Assembly: GCA_031296935.1 (NCBI GenBank)
Contig: JAVDPD010000004.1
Location: 210,056-274,055 of the forward strand
DNA length: 64,000 bases
Source: Cerasicoccus maritimus
GTDB taxonomy: Bacteria > Verrucomicrobiota > Verrucomicrobiia > Opitutales > Cerasicoccaceae
Direction of reading: 5' to 3'
Shown here: in pieces, positions 12,845 through 23,777 of the stretch
How positions within the stretch are numbered: the stretch's first letter is position 1
Layout: each line of letters opens with the position of its first letter
Translations under genes and position numbers: made by a program
The notes under the pieces: model-generated
The model's database searches: none
What the model saw: the letters and a program-made list of their open reading frames with translations, nothing else
Told to the model about the DNA's origin: nothing

Positions 12845-12869
12845 GCGGTTCGAGACGATCCGCGCCACC
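12845..12869 (-). repeat. intergenic hairpin repeat, copy D (partial)
   Basis: Read on the minus strand this is GGTGGCGCGGATCG, TCT, CGAACCGC: the flank, loop and stem of the family seen at 20801 and 22318, with one stem mismatch and without the 3' extension that ends in GGTAGGGCG. Confidence 0.6.
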
Positions 12870-12885
12870 ATTTCTGATGCCCTTA

Positions 12886-12914
12886 CTTTAACCTTTATCC
12901 TTGAGACTTTAATC
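12886..12914 (+). promoter_or_regulatory. CTTTAACC/CTTTAATC tract ahead of the DUF4019 gene
   Basis: CTTTAACCTTTATCC followed by GACTTTAATC, ending 14 bases before the start at 12929. It is similar to tracts ahead of queG, trmB, obgE and alaS. The function is unknown. Confidence 0.4.
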
Positions 12915-12928
12915 ACAACCATGCGGCT

Positions 12929-13405
12929 ATGAAACGCACGAGGTCTTTCTTCTCGCTAATTTGCCTGGCTATTGTCTTCAGCGCCACCAACGCGCTCCGT
13001 GCCGCGCCAACCGTGGAGCTCGCGGCGCGAGAGCAGGCCGATGCTTGGTTAGCCGTTGTGGACAAGGGCGAATATGGTGAAGCCTGGGCGCGCAGTGCGC
13101 CGTTTTTCCGTATCCAGATCTCGCGGGAGGAGTTTGTGAAGGCTCTGGAGAAAATCCGTGAAGACTTGGGGGCCGTTGAGAAGCGCCAGCTCATGCGTTT
13201 GTTTTACACCGTGCGCCTGCCTGGTTCGCCAGATGCGCATTACGTGATGATCCAGTATAAAACGAAGTTTGCCAACCGGGAGGAGCCCGTGGTGGAGATC
13301 ATTACGCCGCTGCTGATCAATTCCGATGGCGACCCGGTCCCAGTAGTAGACGACCCGCTGACGGTCAAGGCGGATTGGCAGGTAGCAGGCTACTATATTC
13401 AGTAA
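12929..13405 (+). CDS. DUF4019-type exported protein
   Basis: A 158-residue protein with a signal peptide (KRTRSFFSLICLAIVFSATNALRA) and a mature part matching the pattern of DUF4019 proteins: ADAWLAVVDKGEYGEAWARS near the N-terminus, ISREEFVKALEKIREDLG, then MIQYKTKFANREEPVVEIIT and a C-terminal WQVAGYYIQ. These domains resemble the SnoaL/NTF2-like fold. The biochemical role of the family is not known. The gene is free-standing and followed by the HAD phosphatase at 65 bases. Confidence 0.8.
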   Translation: MKRTRSFFSLICLAIVFSATNALRAAPTVELAAREQADAWLAVVDKGEYGEAWARSAPFFRIQISREEFVKALEKIREDLGAVEKRQLMRLFYTVRLPGSPDAHYVMIQYKTKFANREEPVVEIITPLLINSDGDPVPVVDDPLTVKADWQVAGYYIQ

Positions 13406-13470
13406 GCCGTAAAGGAGTTTGCTAAACACGCAGCATTGGGTATGATGGTAGCTGTAAGCAGTAGCCAACC

Positions 13471-14223
13471 ATGTTTTCGGATTGCCAGGCGGTGTTCTTC
13501 GACCTCTGCGGCGTTTTGTATGAGGGGGACAGCGTATATCCCGGTGCAGTGGATGCCGTGCAGGCCGCATTGAGGCAAGGCAAGGTCGTCCGATACGTGA
13601 CAAATACTGCGACTCGCAGCGAGACCGATATCTGTGACAAGCTTTTGCGGCTCGGTTTTCCTGTGGAGGATGGGCAGCTCTACGCCGCTCCCCGGGCTGC
13701 CCGAGACTATGTGGCCGCGCGCAACCTACGCCCACTGTGCTTGGTGCACCCGGCCATCTTGGGATACTTTGAGGGCTTGGCCACGGAAGATGAGCCGAAT
13801 TGCGTGGTCCTTGGCGATGCCCGGGAGGGGCTCCACTATGATGCGCTCAACCATGCGTTTCGCGTTTGTATGAATGGGGCGCCGCTGATCGGTATAGGCC
13901 GCAACAAATACTTCAAGGACGCCGGGCAATTGATGCTCGACGCCGGGGCGTTTATTGCCGCGCTAGAGTGGGCCACTGGGGTGGAGGCGGTCATTATGGG
14001 CAAGCCAAGCGAGGACTTCTTTTTGCAGATCGTGCATTCAACTGGTCACGAGCCAAAGGACTGTCTGATGATCGGGGACGACGTCAACGGTGACATCGTA
14101 GGGGCGGTCAATGCCGGGTTGCAGGGTTGCCTTGTGCGCACCGGTAAGTACCGATCCAGCGATGATGACACCTTGCCGGTCAGCGCGCGGATCGTTGATT
14201 CGATTGCGGATTGCATGAACTAG
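13471..14223 (+). CDS. HAD-IIA phosphatase, LHPP/HDHD2-like
   Basis: A 250-residue HAD-superfamily hydrolase of subfamily IIA. Motif I is AVFFDLCGVLYEG near residue 7. The first Asp (nucleophile) is present, but the second Asp of the usual DxD is Cys. LHPP/HDHD2-type enzymes also lack it (DxS). Motif II is YVTNTATRS near 45, the conserved Lys is in IMGKPSEDFF, and motif IV is LMIGDDVNGDIVGAVNAGL. A cap domain lies between II and III. Members act on phosphate esters, phosphohistidine or phospholysine, or pyrophosphate; the true substrate is unknown here. Confidence 0.85.
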   Translation: MFSDCQAVFFDLCGVLYEGDSVYPGAVDAVQAALRQGKVVRYVTNTATRSETDICDKLLRLGFPVEDGQLYAAPRAARDYVAARNLRPLCLVHPAILGYFEGLATEDEPNCVVLGDAREGLHYDALNHAFRVCMNGAPLIGIGRNKYFKDAGQLMLDAGAFIAALEWATGVEAVIMGKPSEDFFLQIVHSTGHEPKDCLMIGDDVNGDIVGAVNAGLQGCLVRTGKYRSSDDDTLPVSARIVDSIADCMN

Positions 14224-14281
14224 GCCCGTATCAACCGAATGAATAAGATGTGCTAATCTGTTCAATCTATGATAAATATTC

Positions 14282-15130
14282 ATGCCTCCGAATGAAGTTG
14301 CACGCTCAGCGCCCTTTTACCAACTTGGCCTCGTGACTCCCCAAAAATTAGCTTACCGTTACTTTGGCGGTGAGGGTAATCCTCCCATTGTCCTGTTGCA
14401 TGGTCTCCTGGGCTCATCCCGAAACTGGGTGAGCGCCGCGAAGGAGTTGGTCAAAGATTACGAAGTCTTTGCGCTTGATTTGCGCAATCATGGCGACTCG
14501 CCCCACTGCGACTCCATGGATTTCGGTGAGATGGCTGCCGATGTTCTGCAATTCCTGGAGGAGCACGAGCTGGATCAAGTCTGCCTTTTGGGCCACAGTC
14601 TTGGCGGCAAGGTCGCCATGCGCGTAGCGATGGAGTCCCCGGAGAGCTTGGAGAGCCTGATCATTGTGGACATTGCCCCGCGCGACTACCCGCCCTACCA
14701 CCAGCGGGATTTCGACGCGATGAACGCCCTGCCACTCGCTGAGTTGACTAGCCGTAAAGACGCCGATGAGCGCCTGGCTGAGCAGGTGCCCGACTGGGCG
14801 CAGCGTCAATTTCTCCTGACCAATCTTGCCCGCGAAGGCGACGCCTTCAAGTGGAGCATCAATCTGCGCGCACTCACGGCAGCGCGTGATGTGATGCGTG
14901 CAAACTCGATTGGCGCGAGTGATGTTTTCAACGGCGCTACGACCTACATACTCGGTGGGCAGTCGCGTTTTGTGCTTCCGGAGGATTGGCGCATCATCAA
15001 CCGCCATTTTCCCAAGGCGCGTATCGAACTAATCGATGAATCTGGGCACAATCCGCACATCGAAAAGCGAGACCGCTTCCTGGGCGCCATCGAGCGCCAC
15101 CGTGAAGTGGACTGGGGCAGCATGGTATGA
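14282..15130 (+). CDS. alpha/beta hydrolase, YbfF-like esterase
   Basis: A 282-residue alpha/beta hydrolase. The oxyanion region is IVLLHGLLGSSRNW, the nucleophile elbow GHSLGGKVAM carries the catalytic Ser, and the terminal His is in DESGHNPHIEKRDRF. The stretch VFALDLRNHGDSPH is typical of the YbfF/abhydrolase-11 group of short-chain esterases. The acid residue is probably in the strand before YILGGQSRFV. Its stop overlaps by four bases (ATGA) the start of a 34-residue membrane peptide, so the two are likely made together. Confidence 0.85.
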   Translation: MPPNEVARSAPFYQLGLVTPQKLAYRYFGGEGNPPIVLLHGLLGSSRNWVSAAKELVKDYEVFALDLRNHGDSPHCDSMDFGEMAADVLQFLEEHELDQVCLLGHSLGGKVAMRVAMESPESLESLIIVDIAPRDYPPYHQRDFDAMNALPLAELTSRKDADERLAEQVPDWAQRQFLLTNLAREGDAFKWSINLRALTAARDVMRANSIGASDVFNGATTYILGGQSRFVLPEDWRIINRHFPKARIELIDESGHNPHIEKRDRFLGAIERHREVDWGSMV

Positions 15131-15231
15131 GTCGTGACGCCATCATCATCTGGGGCGTGGTTGTGCTGGGCGCGATTCTTGTCGGCGTCTGGAAATTCAA
15201 GCTGCTCATGGACATCCTCAGCTCGAACTGA
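15127..15231 (+). CDS. 34-residue single-pass membrane peptide
   Basis: The ATG at 15127 overlaps the esterase stop (ATGA), and the frame runs for 34 codons to TGA at 15229-15231. The peptide begins MSRDAIIIWGVVVLGAILVG and continues VWKFKLLMDILSSN, which is one hydrophobic helix of about 16-18 residues followed by a basic, amphipathic end. The coupling and the clean membrane-helix pattern favour a real small protein. The function is unknown; it may anchor or modulate the esterase. Confidence 0.55.
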   Translation: MSRDAIIIWGVVVLGAILVGVWKFKLLMDILSSN

Positions 15232-15243
15232 CTCGTCTCAAAT

Positions 15244-15259
15244 TGTTCCACGTGGAACC
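15244..15259. promoter_or_regulatory. parS-like site 3 (intergenic)
   Basis: TGTTCCACGTGGAACC matches the two sites inside mnmG at 15 of 16 positions. It lies between convergent genes, about 8.6 kb from the other two. Its imperfect last base may weaken binding. Confidence 0.7.
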
Positions 15260-15271
15260 CAGCGTGCCGCC

Positions 15272-15300
15272 CTGGGGTGAGCTTGCCGAATCCCTGGACC
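15272..15300 (+). repeat. 29-base dispersed repeat, copy 1
   Basis: CTGGGGTGAGCTTG-C-CGAATCCCTGGACC. The reverse complement of 23671-23699 is the same sequence with one difference (T for C). Both copies lie in intergenic DNA next to hairpin repeats. Confidence 0.65.
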
Positions 15301-15343
15301 CAGAGATTTGCTCTGTGAGAAATGGCTATGCGACCACTCTAAG

Positions 15344-15370
15344 GGTAGCGGCCAGCGTCCCCGCTGGCCA
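15344..15370 (+). repeat. intergenic hairpin repeat, copy E
   Basis: GGTAGC precedes the stem GGCCAGCG, loop TCCC and stem CGCTGGCC. An exact reverse-complement copy of all 27 bases lies at 15465-15491, 94 bases away. The stem sequence is entirely different from the copies near 20.8 and 22.3 kb, although loop and flank are the same. Confidence 0.75.
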
Positions 15371-15464
15371 AGCCTGGAACAGAGAGAAAGATCGAATCGG
15401 TCCGCGCTAAACATTGAGAGCAAATATAAGCTTCAGGATAACGCTTTGCTTCCCGCCTGTATCG

Positions 15465-15491
15465 TGGCCAGCGGGGACGCTGGCCGCTACC
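15465..15491 (-). repeat. intergenic hairpin repeat, copy F
   Basis: The exact inverted copy of 15344-15370. The pair could fold into one long stem or two separate hairpins. The 94 bases between them have no coding potential. Confidence 0.75.
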
Positions 15492-15537
15492 TTTATATAC
15501 ATTTGCAATGGACTCCTCGCACGGTCGACTAGCCCAC

Positions 15538-15574
15538 AAAAAAGCCCCGCTCGCACTAGGCAAGCGGGGCTTGG
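15538..15574 (-). terminator. intrinsic terminator of glgP
   Basis: The stem AAGCCCCGCT (15542-15551) pairs with AGCGGGGCTT (15563-15572). On the minus strand it is followed by a run of T (15538-15543 complement), and it lies 22 bases after the glgP stop codon. Confidence 0.8.
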
Positions 15575-15594
15575 AAATGATGCTTAGCCGACGC

Positions 15595-18105
15595 TTATGC
15601 GGTGACGGCCTTGAGATCCCAGATCTCCTTGGCGTATTGATTGATGGTGCGGTCGCTCGAGAACTTACCGACGCAGGCGGTGTTCATGATCGCCATCTTG
15701 GCCCACTTAGCGGTGTCGCGGAAGGCGTCGTCCACGCGCTTTTGGGCGTCGATGAAGGCCTGGTAGTCAGCGCAGACCAGGAACGGGTCGCCGCCGTCGA
15801 GCAGGCTGTTACGGGTCGGAGCCAGTGCGTTGGGATCACCCGGCGTGAAGAAGTCCGAGGCGAGCCAGTCGAGCGCGGCCTTCAGGTTGCCATTACTGTT
15901 GTAGTAATTGTAGGAGTTGTAACCCGAGGCGCGGAGGCGCTCCACCTCCTCAACGGTGAGACCGAAGATGAAGATATTGTCGTCGCCCACTTCTTCGCCG
16001 ATTTCCACGTTGGCGCCGTCGAGCGTGCCAATGGTCAGCGCGCCATTGAGGGCGAGCTTCATGTTACCGGTGCCTGAGGCTTCCTTACCAGCGGTGGAAA
16101 TCTGCTCGGAGAGGTCGGCGGCCGGGATGATCTTCTCGGCCAGCGATACGCGGTAGTTCGGCAAGAAGACCACCTTCAGCTTGTCGCCCACGCGCGGGTC
16201 ATTGTTGACCTTGTCGGCGATTTTGTTGATCGCAAAGATGATTTCCTTGGCCAGGACGTAGCCCGGAGCAGCCTTGGCGCCGAAGATGATGACGCGTGGC
16301 ACGAAGTCGCCATCCGGATTTTGCAGGATCTCCTTGTAGCGCGTCAGGATGTGCAGGAGCTGTAGGTGCTGGCGCTTGTATTCGTGGAGACGCTTGATCT
16401 GGATGTCGAACAGGGCGTCGGGGCTGACCTTGACGCCGCAGTCCTTCTCGATGATTTCAGCGAGGACGACCTTGTTGTCCCGCTTGATCTTCATGAACTT
16501 CTCCTGGAACTTCTTGTCGTCGGCGTATTTGGTGAGGCCCTGGAGCATATCCAAGTCCATCGGCCAGCCATCGCCGATGGTTTCGTCGATAAGGGCGGAG
16601 AGTTCCGGGTTGCAGGCCTTCAGGAAGCGACGCGGCGTGATGCCGTTGGTCTTGTTCTGAATCTTGCCGGGATAGAGGTTGTCGAAGCTGTTGAAGAGGT
16701 GAGCCTTGAGCAGCTCGGTGTGCAGCGCGGCAACGCCGTTGACCGTGTGGCTGCCGATAACCGCCAGGTAGGCCATGCGGATCATCTTGGGCGTGCCTTC
16801 TTCAATGATGGAGAGCTCCATCTTCTTCTTGCCGTCGCCGGGCCACTTGGCTTCGACTTCGTCTTCGAGGAAGCGGCGGTTGATCTCGTAAATGATCTGC
16901 AGGTGGCGCGGCAGGACCTTCTCAAATAGCGGCACGGACCACTTCTCGAGCGCTTCGGGCAGTAGGGTGTGGTTGGTGTAGGCGAAGCAACCGCGGCAGA
17001 TTGCCCAGGCGTCGTCCCAGTCGAGCTTTTCTTCGTCGATGAGGATGCGCATGAGCTCGGCGACGGCCACGGCGGGGTGGGTGTCGTTGAGCTGGATGGC
17101 GGCCTTCTTCGGGAAGTCCTCCCAATCGCTGTTCTTCTTCTTGAAGCGGCGGATGATGTCGTGCAGGGAGCAGGTGACAAAGAAGTATTGCTGGACGAGG
17201 CGCAGCTCCTTGCCGGACTCGGTGGCGTCGTTCGGGTAAAGGACTTTGCTGATCGTTTCGCTGATCGCCTTTTCGCGGACTGCTTCGGTGTAGCCGCCGC
17301 GGTTGAAGGCCTCGAGGTCAAACTCGGTCGAGGCGCGGGATTCCCACAAGCGCAGGAAGTTCACGGTCTGCGCGCCGTAGCCGACAATCGGAATATCCCA
17401 CGGCACACCGACGATTTCCTTGGCGCCAACCCAGGCCGGAGCCCAGTCCCCCGCGTCGTTGGCCTTGTATTCGACGTGGCCATAAAGCGGCACGCGCACT
17501 TCGTATTCCGGGCGCACGATGTGCCACGGATTGCCGTGCTGGAGCCAGTTGTCCGGGCGCTCATGCTGGCGGCCGTTGATGAACTCCTGGCGGAAGAGGC
17601 CAAATTCGTAGTGGATGCCGTAGCCGACTGCCGGGTAATCCAGCGTGGCAAGGGAGTCCAGGAAGCATGCGGCGAGGCGGCCCAAACCACCATTGCCGAG
17701 GCCCATGTCGACTTCGGCGTCGCCGATCTCGCGCAGGTCCATGCCGAGCTCCTTGAGCGCCTTTTCGGCGATGTCGAACATACCGCAGTTGACGAGGTTG
17801 TTCTCCATCAGGCGGCCCATCAGGTATTCCAGCGACAGGTAATAAACGCGGCGGGCGTTGGTGTCGTTGTGAACGCCCTGAGTGGCGATGTAGCGCTCGA
17901 GGATGCGGTCGTTAAGGGCGTGGCAGGTCGCAAGCCACCAGTCGCGCGGCGTGGCGGTCTCGGTGTCACGCGCCAGTTCGTGGACGAGGTTTTCCTCAAT
18001 GCGCTTCTTGAACAACTCCACCGAAGTATCGATGGCGAAAGTTGACTTGGCAGCGGCTTTTTTGGCGGCCTTCTTGGTCGCCTTTTTCTTTTTGGTAGCG
18101 GGCAT
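15595..18105 (-). CDS. glgP: glycogen/alpha-glucan phosphorylase
   Basis: The enzyme releases glucose-1-phosphate from the non-reducing ends of glycogen. The 836-residue protein has the family motifs in order: [54 protein letters not shown], and near the C-terminus [14 protein letters not shown], whose Lys binds pyridoxal phosphate. The start at 18105 (PATKKKK) is chosen over an in-frame start 11 codons upstream. The first ~20 residues are almost only Lys and Ala, a tail not needed for catalysis. The gene stands alone on the minus strand with its own terminator, so its expression is probably independent of its neighbours. Confidence 0.96.
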
Positions 18106-18233
18106 AGTTGCTGGTTGGTGGTGGTGAAAAATTAACAACAGGAACGTCGTTGAAGCAGGCGTTATGCCGTGATTTTATCCGGACGTCAATTGAACTCAAA
18201 CGACGGAATGCTGAAAATGATTTATGGTCGGTA

Positions 18234-19070
18234 TTAGGCGGGCTCCAGCTGGGCTGGAGGCCTCTTAAATAGGGTGAGAAACGCCGCTACCAGGCAAATG
18301 GCCCCTGCGATGAGCGAGGGGCGGCGATTGGGAATGACTTGGGCGTTCTCGACCATGGCTCGGTCGATTAGGCGGATGCCGGCGGAGACGAGCCGTGGGC
18401 CGACGAATTCTGCCGAAAGATCGGCGCTCTCTTGCTGATTGAGGCGTAACTTTTCTTGTACGTCACGCATCTCTCCCTCGAGTTTTTTGAAGTCTCTATG
18501 ATATTTTTCGGTGCTCCGGTCTGTTTTCATGAGCGCCTTAAGCTTTGAGAGCACAACTTCCTGTTGCTCGACGAGGTCAACTCTCTTCTGAAACAGCGAT
18601 TTTCGCTGACCTTCCACTTCTTCAAGGCCTCTCTCGATTTCGGCTTTGACGCGGAGATTGAGCAACTCCTCGGCATAGAGGTTGGCAATTTGGACGGCAT
18701 CGTCGATGCGCGGTGATTCGTAGTTAAGGCTAAACACAGTTGTCGTCGGGTAGATTTCAAGTTTTAGCCCGTCACGAAGGTCGTTCAGTAATTCATCGCT
18801 GGTTTCTTGGCGGTGGTAAGAAATACTGTAATGCTCTTTGAGCCATCTTTGGGATGTAGATTCAGTGAGCTCGTCACTCGCGACCAATGCGTATATTTCC
18901 TTGCGCGTTTCTTTGATCCTGCGGCTCCAGATTTCGTCATCGTTGGGGCCGAGCATTGAGATGCTATTTTTTTGAGGCCAAATTTGCAATGACACCATTG
19001 CTTGGTAAGTGGGCGCCGGCACCCAAAACGCAGCAACGAACAGCCCTCCGGCGGCGCCGAGGAGGATCAA
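18234..19070 (-). CDS. Wzz/chain-length-determinant-like membrane protein, start uncertain
   Basis: A protein of about 278 residues with the architecture of polysaccharide copolymerases. An N-terminal membrane helix (ILLGAAGGLFVAAFWVP) is followed by a large periplasmic part with coiled coil around GLEEVEGQRKSLFQKRVDLV. A C-terminal helix (IAGAICLVAAFLTLF) follows a Pro-rich turn (RPSLIAG). There is no kinase domain. The first usable start in frame is a TTG inside the membrane helix. The frame is open a further ~16 codons upstream (IEGKIRQLKQHPWAL, a typical cytoplasmic lead-in) but contains no ATG, GTG or TTG before a stop. It may be 5'-damaged or use an unusual start. It is divergent from the ArsR operon. 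Confidence 0.6.
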   Translation of the reverse strand: MILLGAAGGLFVAAFWVPAPTYQAMVSLQIWPQKNSISMLGPNDDEIWSRRIKETRKEIYALVASDELTESTSQRWLKEHYSISYHRQETSDELLNDLRDGLKLEIYPTTTVFSLNYESPRIDDAVQIANLYAEELLNLRVKAEIERGLEEVEGQRKSLFQKRVDLVEQQEVVLSKLKALMKTDRSTEKYHRDFKKLEGEMRDVQEKLRLNQQESADLSAEFVGPRLVSAGIRLIDRAMVENAQVIPNRRPSLIAGAICLVAAFLTLFKRPPAQLEPA

Positions 19071-19216
19071 GGCCCAGGGGTGCTGCTTGAGTTGGCGTAT
19101 TTTTCCCTCGATAGCGTATTAGGAAACGATGAAAGCACATTTGTTCGCGGAAATTGGTGACGTTCTTGCGCCGATTCGACCGCCCAAGAAATTTGCGAAA
19201 ATGATTTGCGCGCGGG

Positions 19217-19240
19217 GCATATTCCGTCGATGGTATATGC
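19217..19240. promoter_or_regulatory. candidate ArsR operator
   Basis: GCATAT-N12-ATATGC, a perfect 6-base inverted repeat with a 12-base spacer, ends 4 bases before the arsR-like ATG at 19245. The size and AT content suit a dimeric winged-helix repressor, and the position fits autorepression. The family assignment of the operator is inferred. Confidence 0.45.
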
Positions 19241-19244
19241 AACA

Positions 19245-19607
19245 ATGGAAGTCGTCAAAATATACAAGTGCCTCTGCGACGAGCAGCGCCTGCGCATCCT
19301 GAACCTCTTGCAGGAAGGGCCGCTGTGCGTGTGCCACATCATGGAGGTGCTCGATGCTGACCAAGTGAAGATTTCCAAGCAGCTCCGCTACATGAAGGAG
19401 CAGGGCATGGTCGAGTGCGAGCGCAAGGCCCAGTGGATGATTTACCGCCTCGCCGACGCCGATAACCCGCTGCTCCTCGATAACCTCAAGTGCTTGCAAG
19501 ACAGCGCCGGTGAGAGCCTCCGCTTTGAGGTCGACTTGGCCAAACGCGCCGAGGTCGTGAAGCGCTTTTGCGAGACCTCCCCCGACTACATGGACCAAAT
19601 TTCCTAA
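19245..19607 (+). CDS. ArsR-family metalloregulator
   Basis: A 120-residue winged-helix repressor. The recognition region includes LCDEQRLRILNLLQEGPLCV, continuing CHIMEVLDADQVKISKQLRY. The pair of Cys in LCVCHI at the start of the DNA-binding helix is the arsenic/antimony-sensing pattern of ArsR (ELCVCDL in classical members). Further Cys lie in KCLCDEQ and LKCLQDS. ATG 19245 is chosen because family similarity starts there. It heads an operon with a 54-residue Cys-rich peptide and a DUF318 permease. On binding metalloid it should release the operator and induce the operon. Confidence 0.9.
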   Translation: MEVVKIYKCLCDEQRLRILNLLQEGPLCVCHIMEVLDADQVKISKQLRYMKEQGMVECERKAQWMIYRLADADNPLLLDNLKCLQDSAGESLRFEVDLAKRAEVVKRFCETSPDYMDQIS

Positions 19608-19632
19608 ACCGCCATTTTCCAAAATCACCACT

Positions 19633-19797
19633 ATGAGCACCCAAAAGGTAGAAAAAGAAGCGAAGAAACCAGAGGCCAAGCCAGGCTTTTTCACCCGCAT
19701 CATTAGCAAGCTCGATTCCTCGATGAAGGAAAAGGCCGACGCCAAAGCGCAGCAAAGCTGCTGCGGTGGCGATGGTAAGGGCGGCAAATGCTGCTAG
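19633..19797 (+). CDS. 54-residue Lys-rich peptide with Cys-pair tail
   Basis: Starts 25 bases after the arsR-like stop and overlaps the permease start by 10 bases. The N-terminal part is highly charged ([14 protein letters not shown]), the middle has an amphipathic helix ([16 protein letters not shown]), and the C-terminus is [15 protein letters not shown]. Two vicinal Cys pairs separated by a Gly-rich loop suggest binding of a soft metal or metalloid, or thiol exchange. Placement between a metal-sensing repressor and a metalloid-type permease supports a role as chaperone or accessory. I know no named family for it. Confidence 0.65.
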
Positions 19798-20753
19798 AAA
19801 ACTCGCTGAACGTCCTCGTTTTTGAATGGATTGGCCTCGACCCGGAATCCCGGTTCGGGGGCGCGGTCCATTTTTTCCTCTACGACACGATCAAGATCTT
19901 CCTGCTGCTCGCGGTGATGATCTTCCTGATCGGCGTCGTGCGCACGTGGCTGCCCGAGCACAAGCTGAAGCAGTGGATGAGCAAAGGCGGGCTCTGGGGC
20001 AACCTCGTGGCGGCGATTTTTGGCGCGGTCACGCCGTTTTGCTCCTGCTCGTCGATCCCGATTTTCATCAGCCTGCTCAAGGCCGGCGCGCCGCTCGGGG
20101 TGACGTTTTCCTTCCTCGTCACCTCGCCGATTATCAACGAATACTTGGCCATCCTCATGGTGGGCGAATTCGGCCTGCCGATCACCATTGCCTACGTGGC
20201 CAGCGGGATGCTCGTGGGCGTGTTCGCCGGCGCCGCTATTGGTCGGCTGAAGCTCGAACGTTTCATTGAGCAAGATATGCTCGCCGGAGATGCGGACAAA
20301 GACGTCGTCCGTGAATACACCTGGAAAAGCCGCCTCAAGTTCGGCTTCGACGAATCCGCCGACGTGATCAAGCAGATCTGGCTCTGGGTCCTCGTTGGCG
20401 TGGGCATCGGCGCATTCATTCACAACTACGTGCCACAAGAGGTGATTCAAAACATGATTGCCGCTACTGGCATCTTTGGCGTGCCAATCGCAACCATCCT
20501 TGGTGTGCCGATGTATGGCAGCTGCGCGGCAATTGTCCCCGTGGCCGTGGTCTTGTTCGAAAAGGGCATCCCGCTGGGCACGGCGTTGGCCTTTATGATG
20601 GCGATGGCGGCCCTCAGCCTCCCTGAGGCCATCATGCTGCGCCGCATCATCAAGCTCCCGCTCATCGCGATCTTCTTCGGCGTCACCACAATCGCCATCA
20701 TCGCCACCGGCTACCTCCTCAACTTCCTCGCCAGCATCCTGCTGGACCGGTAG
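19788..20753 (+). CDS. DUF318 (ArsP-type) permease
   Basis: A 321-residue integral membrane protein with about eight helices. The family signature [20 protein letters not shown] is followed by [20 protein letters not shown]; the Cys-x-Cys-Ser run lies within the membrane, near the substrate path. A second similar repeat follows ([20 protein letters not shown], then [20 protein letters not shown]). Some members of this family export trivalent organoarsenicals (ArsP). With an ArsR-type regulator and a Cys-rich peptide in the same operon, export of arsenic compounds or another thiophilic agent is likely. The start overlaps the peptide gene. Confidence 0.88.
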
Positions 20754-20772
20754 ATTTGCGCATTGCGCAAAT
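20754..20772. repeat. 19-bp palindrome, copy 2
   Basis: ATTTGCGCA-T-TGCGCAAAT starts at the first base after the permease stop codon. It is preceded by CGGTAG, as at copy 1. It lies 28 bases before hairpin repeat A. It may act as a terminator or as the end of a composite repeat element. Confidence 0.7.
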
Positions 20773-20800
20773 GGCGGAAGGGCAGACGGCTATTTCAACT

Positions 20801-20866
20801 GTCTGAGGTGGCGCGGATCGTCCCCGATCCGCAGTTTCAGGCTGACGGCAAAAGGTAGGGCGCAGT
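20801..20866 (+). repeat. intergenic hairpin repeat, copy A (full length)
   Basis: GTCTGAGGTGGCG leads into the stem GCGGATCG / CGATCCGC with loop TCCC. A constant 3' part follows: AGTTTCAGGCTGACGG then CAAAAGGTAGGGCGCAGT. Nearly the same 65 bases occur inverted at 22318-22384 and a divergent copy lies at 23552. Confidence 0.8.
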
Positions 20867-20882
20867 AGAAATTGCTAGGCTG

Positions 20883-21728
20883 CTACTGAGCCAATTCTTC
20901 CAGTGATCTCATCCCCGTCTGCGTGGTGGTTTTTCCGCGCCAATACGCACGCATCGCCTTGGTCCAATGCTTGTAGTGTAGAATCGTTACGACGCCTGAT
21001 TGGCCAACGCGGACCGGCAGGATGTTCTGGGTTATCCGTCGGTCTGGCAGAAATCCACGCCGCACGAAAAATGATGACACGCGATAGGGGTAGCGGAGGC
21101 CAAATTCGGCAGGCACGGTCACGCCGCGGTCGCGCGAGTAATCGTCATGAACGACTTGTGCCAACTGCGCCATTTCCGGCGAGCCATCGTAATGAGCCTG
21201 TGAGACAATGTCGGCAGCATACTCGAGTTCATTCAGATCGGCTGTGCCGTCTGGAGTGTCTGAGTAGATGATGAATGCGGGCATTGAGCCAATGCCGTAG
21301 TTGTATAGTTCGCTATTGGCCTTTACAATACAGCCCCAAGTCCTCTTGCCGCGCCAGTAAGTAAAGGGGTGCATGACGATGTTGGCGATAAGCCCATCGC
21401 GGTTAAGGCTACACAGCAGGCCTTGCACGAAATAGAAAATCGTGAAGTCCACCGGGTTGATTCCCGGTAGTGAGCGTTTGACTGACATGCCGCCGGGCTC
21501 CAGATGCATTTGCTGCAAGGTTCCTCCAGAGACCAAAGGCACATGATCAAGCTTCGAGCGGATTTTGATGTCGGCAAAGGCGTAAATCCCGAGCACGGGA
21601 ATGCCGAATGCGACAAAAATAATGCAGCTATCTCTGAAGTTGGCTTCGGCAACGCGCGTAAACCAAAATATCCCGACAAAAGCCAAAAGTAGGGCGGCAC
21701 GTAGGCCCCATTTTAAGTAGGTAATCAT
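20883..21728 (-). CDS. hypothetical membrane-anchored protein
   Basis: A 281-residue protein. Two N-terminal hydrophobic segments (GLRAALLLAFVGIFWFTRV and CIIFVAFGIPVLGIYAF) are followed by a large soluble part of about 225 residues, rich in aromatic residues and without recognisable motifs. Notable stretches are FTIFYFVQGLLCSLNRDGL and RYPYRVSSFFVRRGFLP. I do not recognise the family. It lies between two inverted copies of the hairpin repeat, downstream of a truncated copolymerase gene on the same strand. It looks less GC-rich than the flanking housekeeping genes and may be part of a mobile or decaying segment. Confidence 0.55.
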   Translation of the reverse strand: MITYLKWGLRAALLLAFVGIFWFTRVAEANFRDSCIIFVAFGIPVLGIYAFADIKIRSKLDHVPLVSGGTLQQMHLEPGGMSVKRSLPGINPVDFTIFYFVQGLLCSLNRDGLIANIVMHPFTYWRGKRTWGCIVKANSELYNYGIGSMPAFIIYSDTPDGTADLNELEYAADIVSQAHYDGSPEMAQLAQVVHDDYSRDRGVTVPAEFGLRYPYRVSSFFVRRGFLPDRRITQNILPVRVGQSGVVTILHYKHWTKAMRAYWRGKTTTQTGMRSLEELAQ

Positions 21729-21791
21729 ATAATGCTAGTGTTTCAGGTCGTCTGAGGGTTGGCGCTGTGTATAGCTACGTTCGCCTTCTGC

Positions 21792-22244
21792 TCAGCGTGG
21801 CAACGGCGGCGGGGCGTCGTTCTTTTTGCTACCAAAGGCAAAGAGCAGAGTTGCGAGCAATATGAATACGCCAGCTGGAATAGCAATGCGTAGGGCAAGG
21901 TTCAGCATGATGTTTGGTTTATAGGGGCGGACTGGAGGGGTAGCCTTGTCGATGATCCGCAGTGGTGATGTCGTGAGTGAGACGCTTGCCATTTCTGCCT
22001 GGAAACGTTCCATCATTGAATAATAAAGGCTGCGGTTGGCATCGAATTTTCCCTGGAGAGCTTCGTCTGTTTTACCGTTTCGCTTGCTTGCGGCTAGTTC
22101 TTCGCGGAGATCTTCGACCTTCTCTCGTTGGTGTTCTGCCCGATTTCTCAGATCCTCAACCGCGCGCATACTTGATTCGATGGCGAGGATGACGATTTTC
22201 CAGGTGGTGCCGCGGCGGCATTTTAAATCCATGCAAAATAACAC
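21792..22244 (-). pseudogene. truncated, internally deleted Wzc-like copolymerase remnant
   Basis: The reading frame has two blocks clearly related to the Wzc-like protein at 31110. SMRAVEDLRNRAEHQREKVE is identical over its length to part of that protein. The C-terminal block (MMERFQAEMASVSL, then RIIDKATPPVRPYKPN and a membrane helix) matches MMARYQTEMAQVAL and RIIDKASPSTKPAKPN. Between the blocks about 150-170 residues of coiled coil are missing, and everything N-terminal is absent. No kinase domain follows. The break lies about 75 bases from hairpin repeat B. The DNA differs at many synonymous sites, so the duplication is old. It could still yield a short coiled-coil membrane protein. Confidence 0.7.
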
Positions 22245-22317
22245 GAATTAACTGCGTTGCGTAGTCAAACCTAAGTTGGTTCAATTGCCTTGAGGCAACG
22301 CGGCGGCTTGTCTGGAG

Positions 22318-22384
22318 ACTGCGCCCTACCTTTTGCCGTAAGCCTGAAACTGCGGATCGAGACGATCCGCGCCACCGTAGACAG
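22318..22384 (-). repeat. intergenic hairpin repeat, copy B (full length)
   Basis: The reverse complement matches copy A at nearly every position: GGTGGCG flank, stem GCGGATCG / CGATCCGC with loop TCT, then AGTTTCAGGCTTACGG and CAAAAGGTAGGGCGC. Its inverted orientation relative to A brackets 20801-22384. Confidence 0.8.
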
Positions 22385-22395
22385 TTGGATAAGCC

Positions 22396-22414
22396 ATTTG
22401 CCCAGTGGGCAAAT
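22396..22414. repeat. 19-bp palindrome, copy 3
   Basis: ATTTGCCCA-G-TGGGCAAAT has the same arm length and single-base centre as copies at 532 and 20754, with paired changes in both arms. It lies on the outer side of hairpin copy B, mirroring the arrangement at copy A. Confidence 0.65.
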
Positions 22415-22437
22415 CACTGGGTGCAGCGGCACGCAGC

Positions 22438-23460
22438 CTACCGGTCGCGCAGGATGCTCGCCCAGACTTTGTCGGTGAAGTCCATGTAGCGGACGCCGTC
22501 AGCGAAGCTGGTCAGGGTGACCGGTTTACCGTCGCGAATGGAGTCCACGAAATCCTGCTCCACGCGCCAACCGATGGCTGTGCCGGAGTCGGGGGAGACC
22601 GGTTCTGGTGTGCCGCCAGTGTGGGTCAGGTAGAGCTTGGACTCGGTGACATCGAAGAGAATGCTGCCACTGGAGCACTGGATGTCGAGATGCCAAACGG
22701 GGAAGCCGCTCGCGACGCAGGAGAAATGGCCGAGGAGTTGGGCGCCGTTGTTGTAGCGCCCGATAAAATTCAGGCTGTCGGGAATGGTGACTGGGGCACG
22801 CCCTTGGCCAATGGCGGTGGGGCGCTCGTCGATCACGGTCGTGGCGTCGGCCTGTACCCAGTCAACGTCGACCCCTTGGCCGAGCCAGCGTTGGGCGGTT
22901 TCGAACATGATGCCCATTGTCATGATGTTGTGGCCGGAAAGGTCGGTGCGTTGACGCCAGGTAAGGGGTGAGGTGGGGTCGGCAGCCGCGCCGCCCACGT
23001 GGACGAGACGGACTTGACGCACTTGCCCTAGCTCGCGGAGTAGGCGCTGGGCGGTGGCGTCGTATTCGAGCGTAAAGGGGGCCGGGACTATTTGCGCAAC
23101 TAAGTCGGGCTTGGAGCCTGCGGCAGCCAGCATTTGCTTGGCCTCATCGAGGTTCATCGCCATGCGGGCCTCGGTGAGCACATGCTTGCCGGCGGAGAGG
23201 GCGGCAATGGTCGCCTCGGCATGGAGGTAGGGCCAGGTGCCGATGCAAACGGCGTCGACCGCGTCGTCTTCAATGACGTCCTGCCAGCGCTTCGCGATGC
23301 GTGGGACGCCAAACTCGTCGGCTACGCGCTGCGCGGACTCGGGCGTCCGGTTGGCGATGGTGACGGCTTCCACGCCATCGATAGCCTGAAAGCCAGGAAT
23401 GTGCATGCTGCGGGTATTCGCGCCCGCGCCGATGATGCCAATGCGTAAGGGGTCTGCCAT
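22438..23460 (-). CDS. Gfo/Idh/MocA-family oxidoreductase
   Basis: A 340-residue NAD(P)-dependent dehydrogenase of the glucose-fructose oxidoreductase/inositol dehydrogenase family. The Rossmann motif is IGIIGAGANTRSMHIPGF at the N-terminus. The family signature for the nicotinamide site appears as CIGTWPYLHAEATIAALSAG, followed by KHVLTEARMA, where EKP of typical members is replaced by TEA. The C-terminal half is the substrate domain. The substrate cannot be told. The gene is isolated on the minus strand between repeat-rich gaps. Confidence 0.88.
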   Translation of the reverse strand: MADPLRIGIIGAGANTRSMHIPGFQAIDGVEAVTIANRTPESAQRVADEFGVPRIAKRWQDVIEDDAVDAVCIGTWPYLHAEATIAALSAGKHVLTEARMAMNLDEAKQMLAAAGSKPDLVAQIVPAPFTLEYDATAQRLLRELGQVRQVRLVHVGGAAADPTSPLTWRQRTDLSGHNIMTMGIMFETAQRWLGQGVDVDWVQADATTVIDERPTAIGQGRAPVTIPDSLNFIGRYNNGAQLLGHFSCVASGFPVWHLDIQCSSGSILFDVTESKLYLTHTGGTPEPVSPDSGTAIGWRVEQDFVDSIRDGKPVTLTSFADGVRYMDFTDKVWASILRDR

Positions 23461-23551
23461 GTGGATAACCTAGCACAGCAGGAGTGAATGAAAACTCCGA
23501 ATGGCTGGAAAAATGGGCGATTGGCCGGAAGGCCGTATTTGCAGGTGCAAA

Positions 23552-23614
23552 GTCTGAGGTAGCGCAGGCGCGTCCCCGCGCCGCACCCCATGCTGACGGC
23601 AAAAGGTAGGGCGA
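23552..23614 (+). repeat. intergenic hairpin repeat, copy C
   Basis: GTCTGAGGTAGCG flank, then the stem GGCGCG / CGCGCC with loop TCCC, then a short divergent stretch and the constant 3' part TGCTGACGGCAAAAGG, TAGGGCG. The stem differs from copies A and E but is fully complementary. Confidence 0.75.
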
Positions 23615-23670: not shown

Positions 23671-23699
23671 GGTCCAGGGATTCGACAAGCTCACCCCAG
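23671..23699 (-). repeat. 29-base dispersed repeat, copy 2
   Basis: The inverted counterpart of 15272-15300 with one mismatch (GGTCCAGGGATTCG-A-CAAGCTCACCCCAG on the plus strand). Confidence 0.65.
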
Positions 23700-23777
23700 A
23701 GCGAGATGCTGCGGTCTAGCGGGATGCTGGCTGGTTGCGATTGCCACGTGATGTTTTTTGCCAAATGTAAGGCAGTG

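Follow-up and report, generated by a model that had tools for sequence, protein, structure and literature searches.

Compensated stem changes in a family of probable GTAG-type REP hairpins of Cerasicoccus maritimus

The window analysed here, a stretch of 64,000 nucleotides from Cerasicoccus maritimus (Verrucomicrobiota; contig JAVDPD010000004.1, positions 210,056 to 274,055), contains six short hairpins that are very probably repetitive extragenic palindromic (REP) elements. REP elements are short DNA palindromes, which are thought to be spread within genomes by a RAYT transposase. On the GGTRG strand, every window copy consists of a GGTRGC foot, an 8-bp stem, a loop of 3-4 nt and the matching arm, and the tetranucleotide GT(A/G)G precedes the hairpin on its 5' side (6/6 for both foot and tetranucleotide). 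The loop is TCCC in four copies and TCT in two. Pairing is perfect in four copies, while one contains a bulge and one a single mismatch. An earlier note on this DNA, made from the letters alone, had described six copies with a common flank and these two loops, which we can confirm, some of its starts being a few bases off. It had also taken the stems to be wholly different yet paired; the pairing stands, and the stems fall into three classes rather than six. All six copies are located between likely genes, as judged by eye from the open reading frames (two overlap mechanical antisense frames), and these likely genes are variously convergent, tandem and divergent.

Class A (stem GGCCAGCG, two copies) is represented by the ends of a single 148 bp element at 15344..15491, assigned to neither strand. 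Its left end lies at 15344..15369 on the plus strand (stem GGCCAGCG/CGCTGGCC, loop TCCC) and its right end at 15466..15491 on the minus strand, such that two inverted REPs point outward with their heads. Such REP doublets forming hairpins are called REPINs, and the spacer of this one is similar to that of other copies. In single-stranded form it is predicted to fold over its whole length, with z-scores of -7.9 and -8.1 on its two strands. Three copies carry the class D stem GCGGATCG: at 12845..12869 (minus strand, loop TCT, the copy with the mismatch), at 20807..20832 (plus strand, GCGGATCG/CGATCCGC, loop TCCC) and at 22352..22376 (minus strand, loop TCT). The single class C copy at 23558..23584 (plus strand, loop TCCC) pairs GC(A)GGCGCG, with the A bulged, to CGCGCCGC. 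In fold predictions, which covered the five copies other than that at 22352-22376, four hairpins were obtained singly and one more was paired within the REPIN.

Three of the window copies are followed by a 3' module with CAAAAGGTAGGGCG, as the earlier note had seen, in which GGTAGGGCG occurs at 20854 (plus), 22330 (minus) and 23605 (plus); the copy at 12845 lacks it. The start of the module resembles that of another REP class, GGTAGGGCGCAGTCTCCAGACAAGCCGC, which is commoner and has GGTAGGGCG as its foot; we call it the second class. The foot occupies 20854..20862 and 23605..23613 on the plus strand, and a perfect second-class copy, an imperfect palindrome with a weak predicted fold, is found at 22303..22330 on the minus strand. 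Allowing up to 3 mismatches, GGTAGGGCGCAGTCTCCAGACAAGCCGC has 52 copies in the window's own genome, 41 in G002 (same genus) and 80 in G004, with 0 in each reversed control. In the loci examined, 9 of the 17 copies of classes C and D have an exact GGTAGGGCG in direct orientation within about 100 bases behind them; one further copy, in L001, has GGTAGGGCA there instead and was scored as a miss. Elsewhere in the own genome (L018, C9:140598-140838) a class C REP and a second-class (GGTAGGGCG) REP together form the unit, about 107 bp long, of a tandem array. Small palindromes, ATTTGCGCATTGCGCAAAT and ATTTGCCCAGTGGGCAAAT, adjoin window REPs at about 20750-20775 and 22395-22416, and similar ones lie beside REPs elsewhere in the genome.

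Copies were counted in the own genome (4.81 Mb in 66 contigs, 97.56% complete), with ten genomes being searched for the family comparison and six contributing to the pairing test. The pattern GGTRGCGN4-14CGTCCCCG matched exactly 34 times in the own genome, its reversed version 0 times. A looser census pattern, which fixes only the foot, the TCCC loop and the outermost pair and leaves the inner pairs free, provided 42 matches compared to 7 for the reversed control; in 36 of the 42, at most one of the 7 free positions was left unpaired, a single bulge being tolerated in 27-mers. When the 3' arms were swapped between sequences 500 times, the number of distinct 26-mers pairing at 6-7 of 7 positions dropped from 32 of 44 to a mean of 6.7 with a maximum of 13. 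For distinct 27-mers, again with one bulge allowed, 9 of 24 paired well, versus a mean of 3.1 and a maximum of 7 after arm swaps. The family is neither sparse in the genome nor complementary at chance level, the two outcomes that the earlier note had named as speaking against its proposal. The stems GCGGAGCG, GGCCAGCG, GCGGATCG and GCCCGTTA are each present in three genomes of the genus (G000, G001 and G002).

The architecture of the window REPIN recurs in other copies, which are 140-148 bp long and show the same regular spacing of inverted REPs with heads outward. Spacers were compared using L019 as class A reference. REPINs of G002 with GGCCG(A/G)T(A/G)-type stems matched the class A spacer with a z-score above 5 in 6 of 8 cases, the exceptions being L210 (1.8) and L211 (1.3). 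Other REPINs with class A stems exceeded this value in 4 of 6 cases (L230 reached 3.6 and L232 3.7). Likewise, both GCGGATCG REPINs carry the same spacer as the GCGGAGCG REPINs (2/2, z-scores 11.9 and 7.4). Different stems, each with compensated arms, are found on homologous spacers. Between classes A and B the spacers are only weakly alike: nine B or D REPINs scored 1.9 to 4.5 against the A reference, and the reverse comparison gave -0.1 to 4.0. Due to this weak likeness we do not claim homology of the A and B spacer lineages. REPINs of both classes are mostly symmetric in the window's own genus; in L211 and L216 the stems differ between the two ends, each end being self-paired apart from G-T.

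REPINs were also found inserted into one another. In the own genome a GCCCGTTA REPIN encloses a GCGGAGCG REPIN (L235), and in G001 GCCCGTTA REPINs contain a class A REPIN (L223) and a REPIN with one GCGGATCG-like and one GCGGAGCG end (L225). The site of the window REPIN differs between relatives. In G003, a genome of the same genus that matches Cerasicoccus arenae KCTC 12870 at 100% across 3,432 bases, the flanking blocks are 69 bases apart compared to 438 in the window and the REPIN is absent; the site is not cleanly empty, further sequence being absent as well. In G001 other sequence fills the corresponding gap, and in G002 the same gene gap (L206) holds a REPIN of the GGCCGATA type, its right end degenerate and its stem unlike that of the window REPIN. 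A different repeat family (CTGGGGTGAGCTTGCCGAATCCCTGGACC) occupies 15260-15326 and, in reverse, 23671-23711 of the window; G001 and other parts of the own genome contain matches to it of 80-88%.

Covariation of the stems was evaluated on 15 of the 25 REPINs that had been compared by spacer, including two without spacer homology. Cells in which both sides of a pair had changed numbered 45 compared to 17.1 in shuffles (0 of 500 were as high), and the covariation score was 0.500 compared to 0.263 in shuffles, while sliding the partners gave no more than 0.144. Structure is not favoured by two of the five measures: there were 8 pairs with both sides changed compared to 6.4 in shuffles (81 of 500 reached the observed value), and 10 further pair types compared to 16.4. 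The fraction of paired cells, 99.2%, is partly built in, since the rows were chosen by a finder that demanded 7 of 8 pairs. The pairing test with arm swaps is free of this bias. A constraint on pairing is supported by these data. Single mismatches, counted on the GGTRG strand, were G-T in 8 and A-C in 0 of the family's distinct 26-mers, with A-G in 4 and T-T in 1. Over the entire length of the 80 RAYT loci surveyed below they were G-T in 19 and A-C in 2 cases, together with A-G 46, G-G 5, C-T 4, C-C 2 and T-T 1. The excess of G-T over A-C, among sequences that are not independent of each other, points to the GGTRG strand as the folded and selected one, be it as DNA or as RNA.

The REP-type transposase, for which the earlier note had suggested a search, is encoded in these genomes, as a broken gene in the own genome and as intact ones in G002. 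The own RAYT remnant (C4:176388-176826, minus strand) is bracketed by inverted, perfect second-class copies with heads outward. It is one of three genes of the Y1 type found in the own genome, all of which are interrupted, the others by a frame break (L031) and a stop (L051); the elements are therefore probably no longer moving in this genome. G002 contains an intact RAYT gene at C3:226890-227330 (minus strand); the GCGGAGCG REPIN upstream of it, at 227359-227524, is 29 bases away. A second intact gene, on C2, has inverted GGTAGGGCGCAGCTT copies on its two sides, such that the two RAYTs of this genome have different REP classes as neighbours. Bracketing of a RAYT by REPs of the second class is seen around the broken own gene; the GCGGAGCG REPIN of G002 is one-sided. 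A RAYT of G004 has second-class variants on both sides, and one of G048, from the same order, is flanked on both sides by REPs of the form GGTAGC-8bp-TCCT/TCTC, all in one orientation. The three proteins scored with NF047646 (REP-associated tyrosine transposase, cut-off 80), two from G002 and one from G048, all passed with 91.8, 93.5 and 92 bits.

Other Y1 genes were encountered as well. PF01797 gave two matches in the own genome, of which the one on C5 (L031) was set aside: it is a Y1 gene of a different kind, its frame is broken, and REP-like hairpins are absent beside it. L051 (own genome, C3:192979-193365) and L053 (G002, C3:599140-599526) represent a different RAYT-like, TIRtron-like Y1 gene, with an internal stop in the own copy and with palindromes on both sides that lack the GTAG foot (GGAGGGCAACGCTTCGTCGTTGCC-type in the own genome, GGAGGGCGACGCTCCGTCGTCGCC-type in G002). 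Further Y1 genes of G002, L055 (C11:21965-22306) and L056 (C3:558948-559226), have palindrome families of their own nearby (GAACGCGAACCTCTGTGTTCGC and GTAGCATAGGCGTCCCGCCTGTGCC, respectively).

At least 398 of 589 candidate stretches were relatives by RAYT profile, and the best 80 were kept for a survey of hairpins around RAYT genes. Within 450 bases of the gene ("near"), 266 GGTRG hairpins were found in 69,564 bp, compared to 71 in the remaining 344,195 bp of the same loci. This corresponds to a ratio of 18.5, which is lowered by hairpins inside the gene being counted as elsewhere. A near hairpin was present in 67 of the 80 loci, and in 45 heads-outward ones were present on both sides. Stems vary widely among these loci while loops are limited to few forms. 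For 51 loci with hairpins in both orientations we compared the seven loop-proximal stem bases, a definition by which part of the stem may be tied to the loop. Stems differed by 0.91 of 7 bases within an orientation (240 pairs) and by 2.52 between orientations (300 pairs). The dominant stems of the two orientations were identical in 10 of the 51 loci and at least 2 of 7 bases apart in 31. The first two loop bases agreed across orientations in 45 of 51 loci (expected 21.4, maximum 30 in 1000 shuffles) and in 28 of the 31 loci with divergent stems. With RAYT identity increasing from 40-50% over 50-60% and 60-70% to 70-80% (1329, 472, 20 and 17 pairs), loop sharing increased from 0.33 over 0.51 and 0.85 to 1.00, and stem sharing from 0.03 over 0.06 and 0.25 to 0.35. 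Loops track the RAYT, whereas stems change faster and are often unlike between orientations. In one group of RAYT-flanking REPs, at loci such as L087, L091, L112, L133 and L155, an A-G mismatch recurs close to the loop (ACC/GGG arms), which recalls the bulge required by E. coli REPs.

With high confidence we regard the hairpins as REPs of the GTAG superfamily, occurring singly or as head-outward REPINs of about 145 bp, and as non-autonomous mobile DNA processed by RAYTs. The REP/MITE-like family that the earlier note could not name can be given a name in this way. REP-associated tyrosine transposases (RAYT, also TnpA-REP) would act on the REPs in single-stranded form, and we infer that these RAYTs move these REPs. 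The enzyme would recognise the folded strand by its GTRG foot and its loop, so that stem bases could change provided that both arms change together; several stem lineages coexist and are common to the genus. Several findings weigh against such a reading. For the second class the predicted fold is no stronger than that of shuffled sequences (z -0.26), and 13 of the 80 RAYT loci have no hairpin within the 450-base limit. The G002 RAYT on C3 has its GCGGAGCG REPIN on one flank and no REP that was seen on the opposite one, and among the nine family loci scanned no RAYT was seen beside class A, C, D or GCCCGTTA REPs. G001, finally, possesses these REPs with no RAYT match at E <= 1e-5.

How the stem relates to the transposase can be seen in two ways. 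A single RAYT specificity, confined to foot and loop, may serve many stem classes, with stems as nearly free, self-templated sequences that drift by paired changes through G-T intermediates on the recognised strand and mark left versus right; many Verrucomicrobiota and relatives would then keep two orientation-specific stems per RAYT that do not mark transposase identity. We put this forward tentatively. It is also possible that each stem class has a dedicated RAYT, the stem being the specificity code, such that a change of stem means a change of transposase. This agrees with the published view that each tnpA-REP gene has its own REP family (PMC6006769) and with the different REP classes next to the two intact RAYTs of G002. 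It is at odds with the 31 of 51 loci in which dominant stems diverge around one gene, 28 of them with common loop bases, with the different stems on homologous spacers and with the REPINs whose two ends differ in stem (L211, L216).

Selection for structure, which the earlier note had placed in RNA or single-stranded DNA, is borne out by arm swaps and covariation as far as pairing is concerned. A structured RNA family, i.e. a regulatory leader, a terminator or a small RNA whose hairpin acts after transcription, would equally explain the compensated stems, and G-T mismatches on one strand would fit RNA too. We consider it very unlikely: a search of the 64-kb window against Rfam gave 0 matches at gathering score, the placement relative to likely genes is mixed, relatives of the element adjoin transposase genes, and inverted pairs give both strands the same role. 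With no Rfam match and with relatives beside RAYT genes, RNA is not needed. Classical miniature inverted-repeat transposable elements (MITEs), whose terminal inverted repeats are moved by the DDE transposase of an unrelated insertion sequence, would share the inverted ends, the length of about 145 bp and the nested copies, yet are highly improbable here, as each end is itself a GTRG-footed hairpin and such hairpins cluster round RAYT genes.

The REPs and REPINs of Cerasicoccus represent known biology in new families; GTAG REPs of Opitutus have been published, as have stem variants that remain complementary (PMC3733652). Their least expected feature is the orientation-specific stems around RAYT genes, which are directly testable in vitro. 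They extend REP, REPIN and RAYT biology in a phylum for which a literature search on REPs and transposases yielded one paper. Literature searches on REPs in Verrucomicrobia and on compensatory change in RAYT/REPIN systems gave nothing beyond the works cited here, and those on Cerasicoccus genomes and repeats no title linked to REPs. REPINs with homologous spacers that differ by up to four compensated pairs per end, with foot and loop constant, provide a natural experiment on RAYT recognition.

The closest resemblance is to the GTAG families that Di Nocera and colleagues described in 2013 (PMC3733652). These share the GTAG or GTGG foot, short stems and loops, GTAG-outward dimers, complementary stem variants, REP-flanked RAYTs and a host range including a Verrucomicrobium. 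There, stems are mostly 6-9 bp long, and most families comprise sub-families that differ in their stem residues while these remain complementary. GTAG REPs are strongly enriched in Opitutus terrae, where most GTAG-20 elements have GTGG instead. The present stem classes and genus did not appear in the passages compared, and our families may be identical to a listed one. With the REPINs of Pseudomonas fluorescens, for which the term was defined and compensatory hairpin changes were found to be common (Bertels and Rainey 2011, PMC3116915), they share the inverted REP doublet with spacer, the joint hairpin, the link to RAYTs and the compensatory changes. A conserved 16-mer terminates those REPINs at each end, whereas here the REP stem itself varies on homologous spacers. 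The y and z REPs in the bacterial interspersed mosaic elements of E. coli similarly comprise two related REP types, inverted and served by one TnpA-REP (PMC6006769, PMC8266576), y and z2 REPs being found in its one REPtron (PMC6006769). E. coli REPs are long and bulged, while the present ones are short and mostly perfect palindromes. REP classes have been tied to cognate RAYTs and to RAYT loss (PMC3686654), and for Stenotrophomonas GTAG, a loop base and pairing outweigh the stem sequence in vitro (PMC8266576). The Group 3 REPs of Stenotrophomonas with their TnpA-REP have 8-9 fully complementary bases beside the foot (PMC3686654), as found here, and differ by a GCT loop in place of TCCC. For the elements described here we infer that foot and loop are what the RAYTs read.

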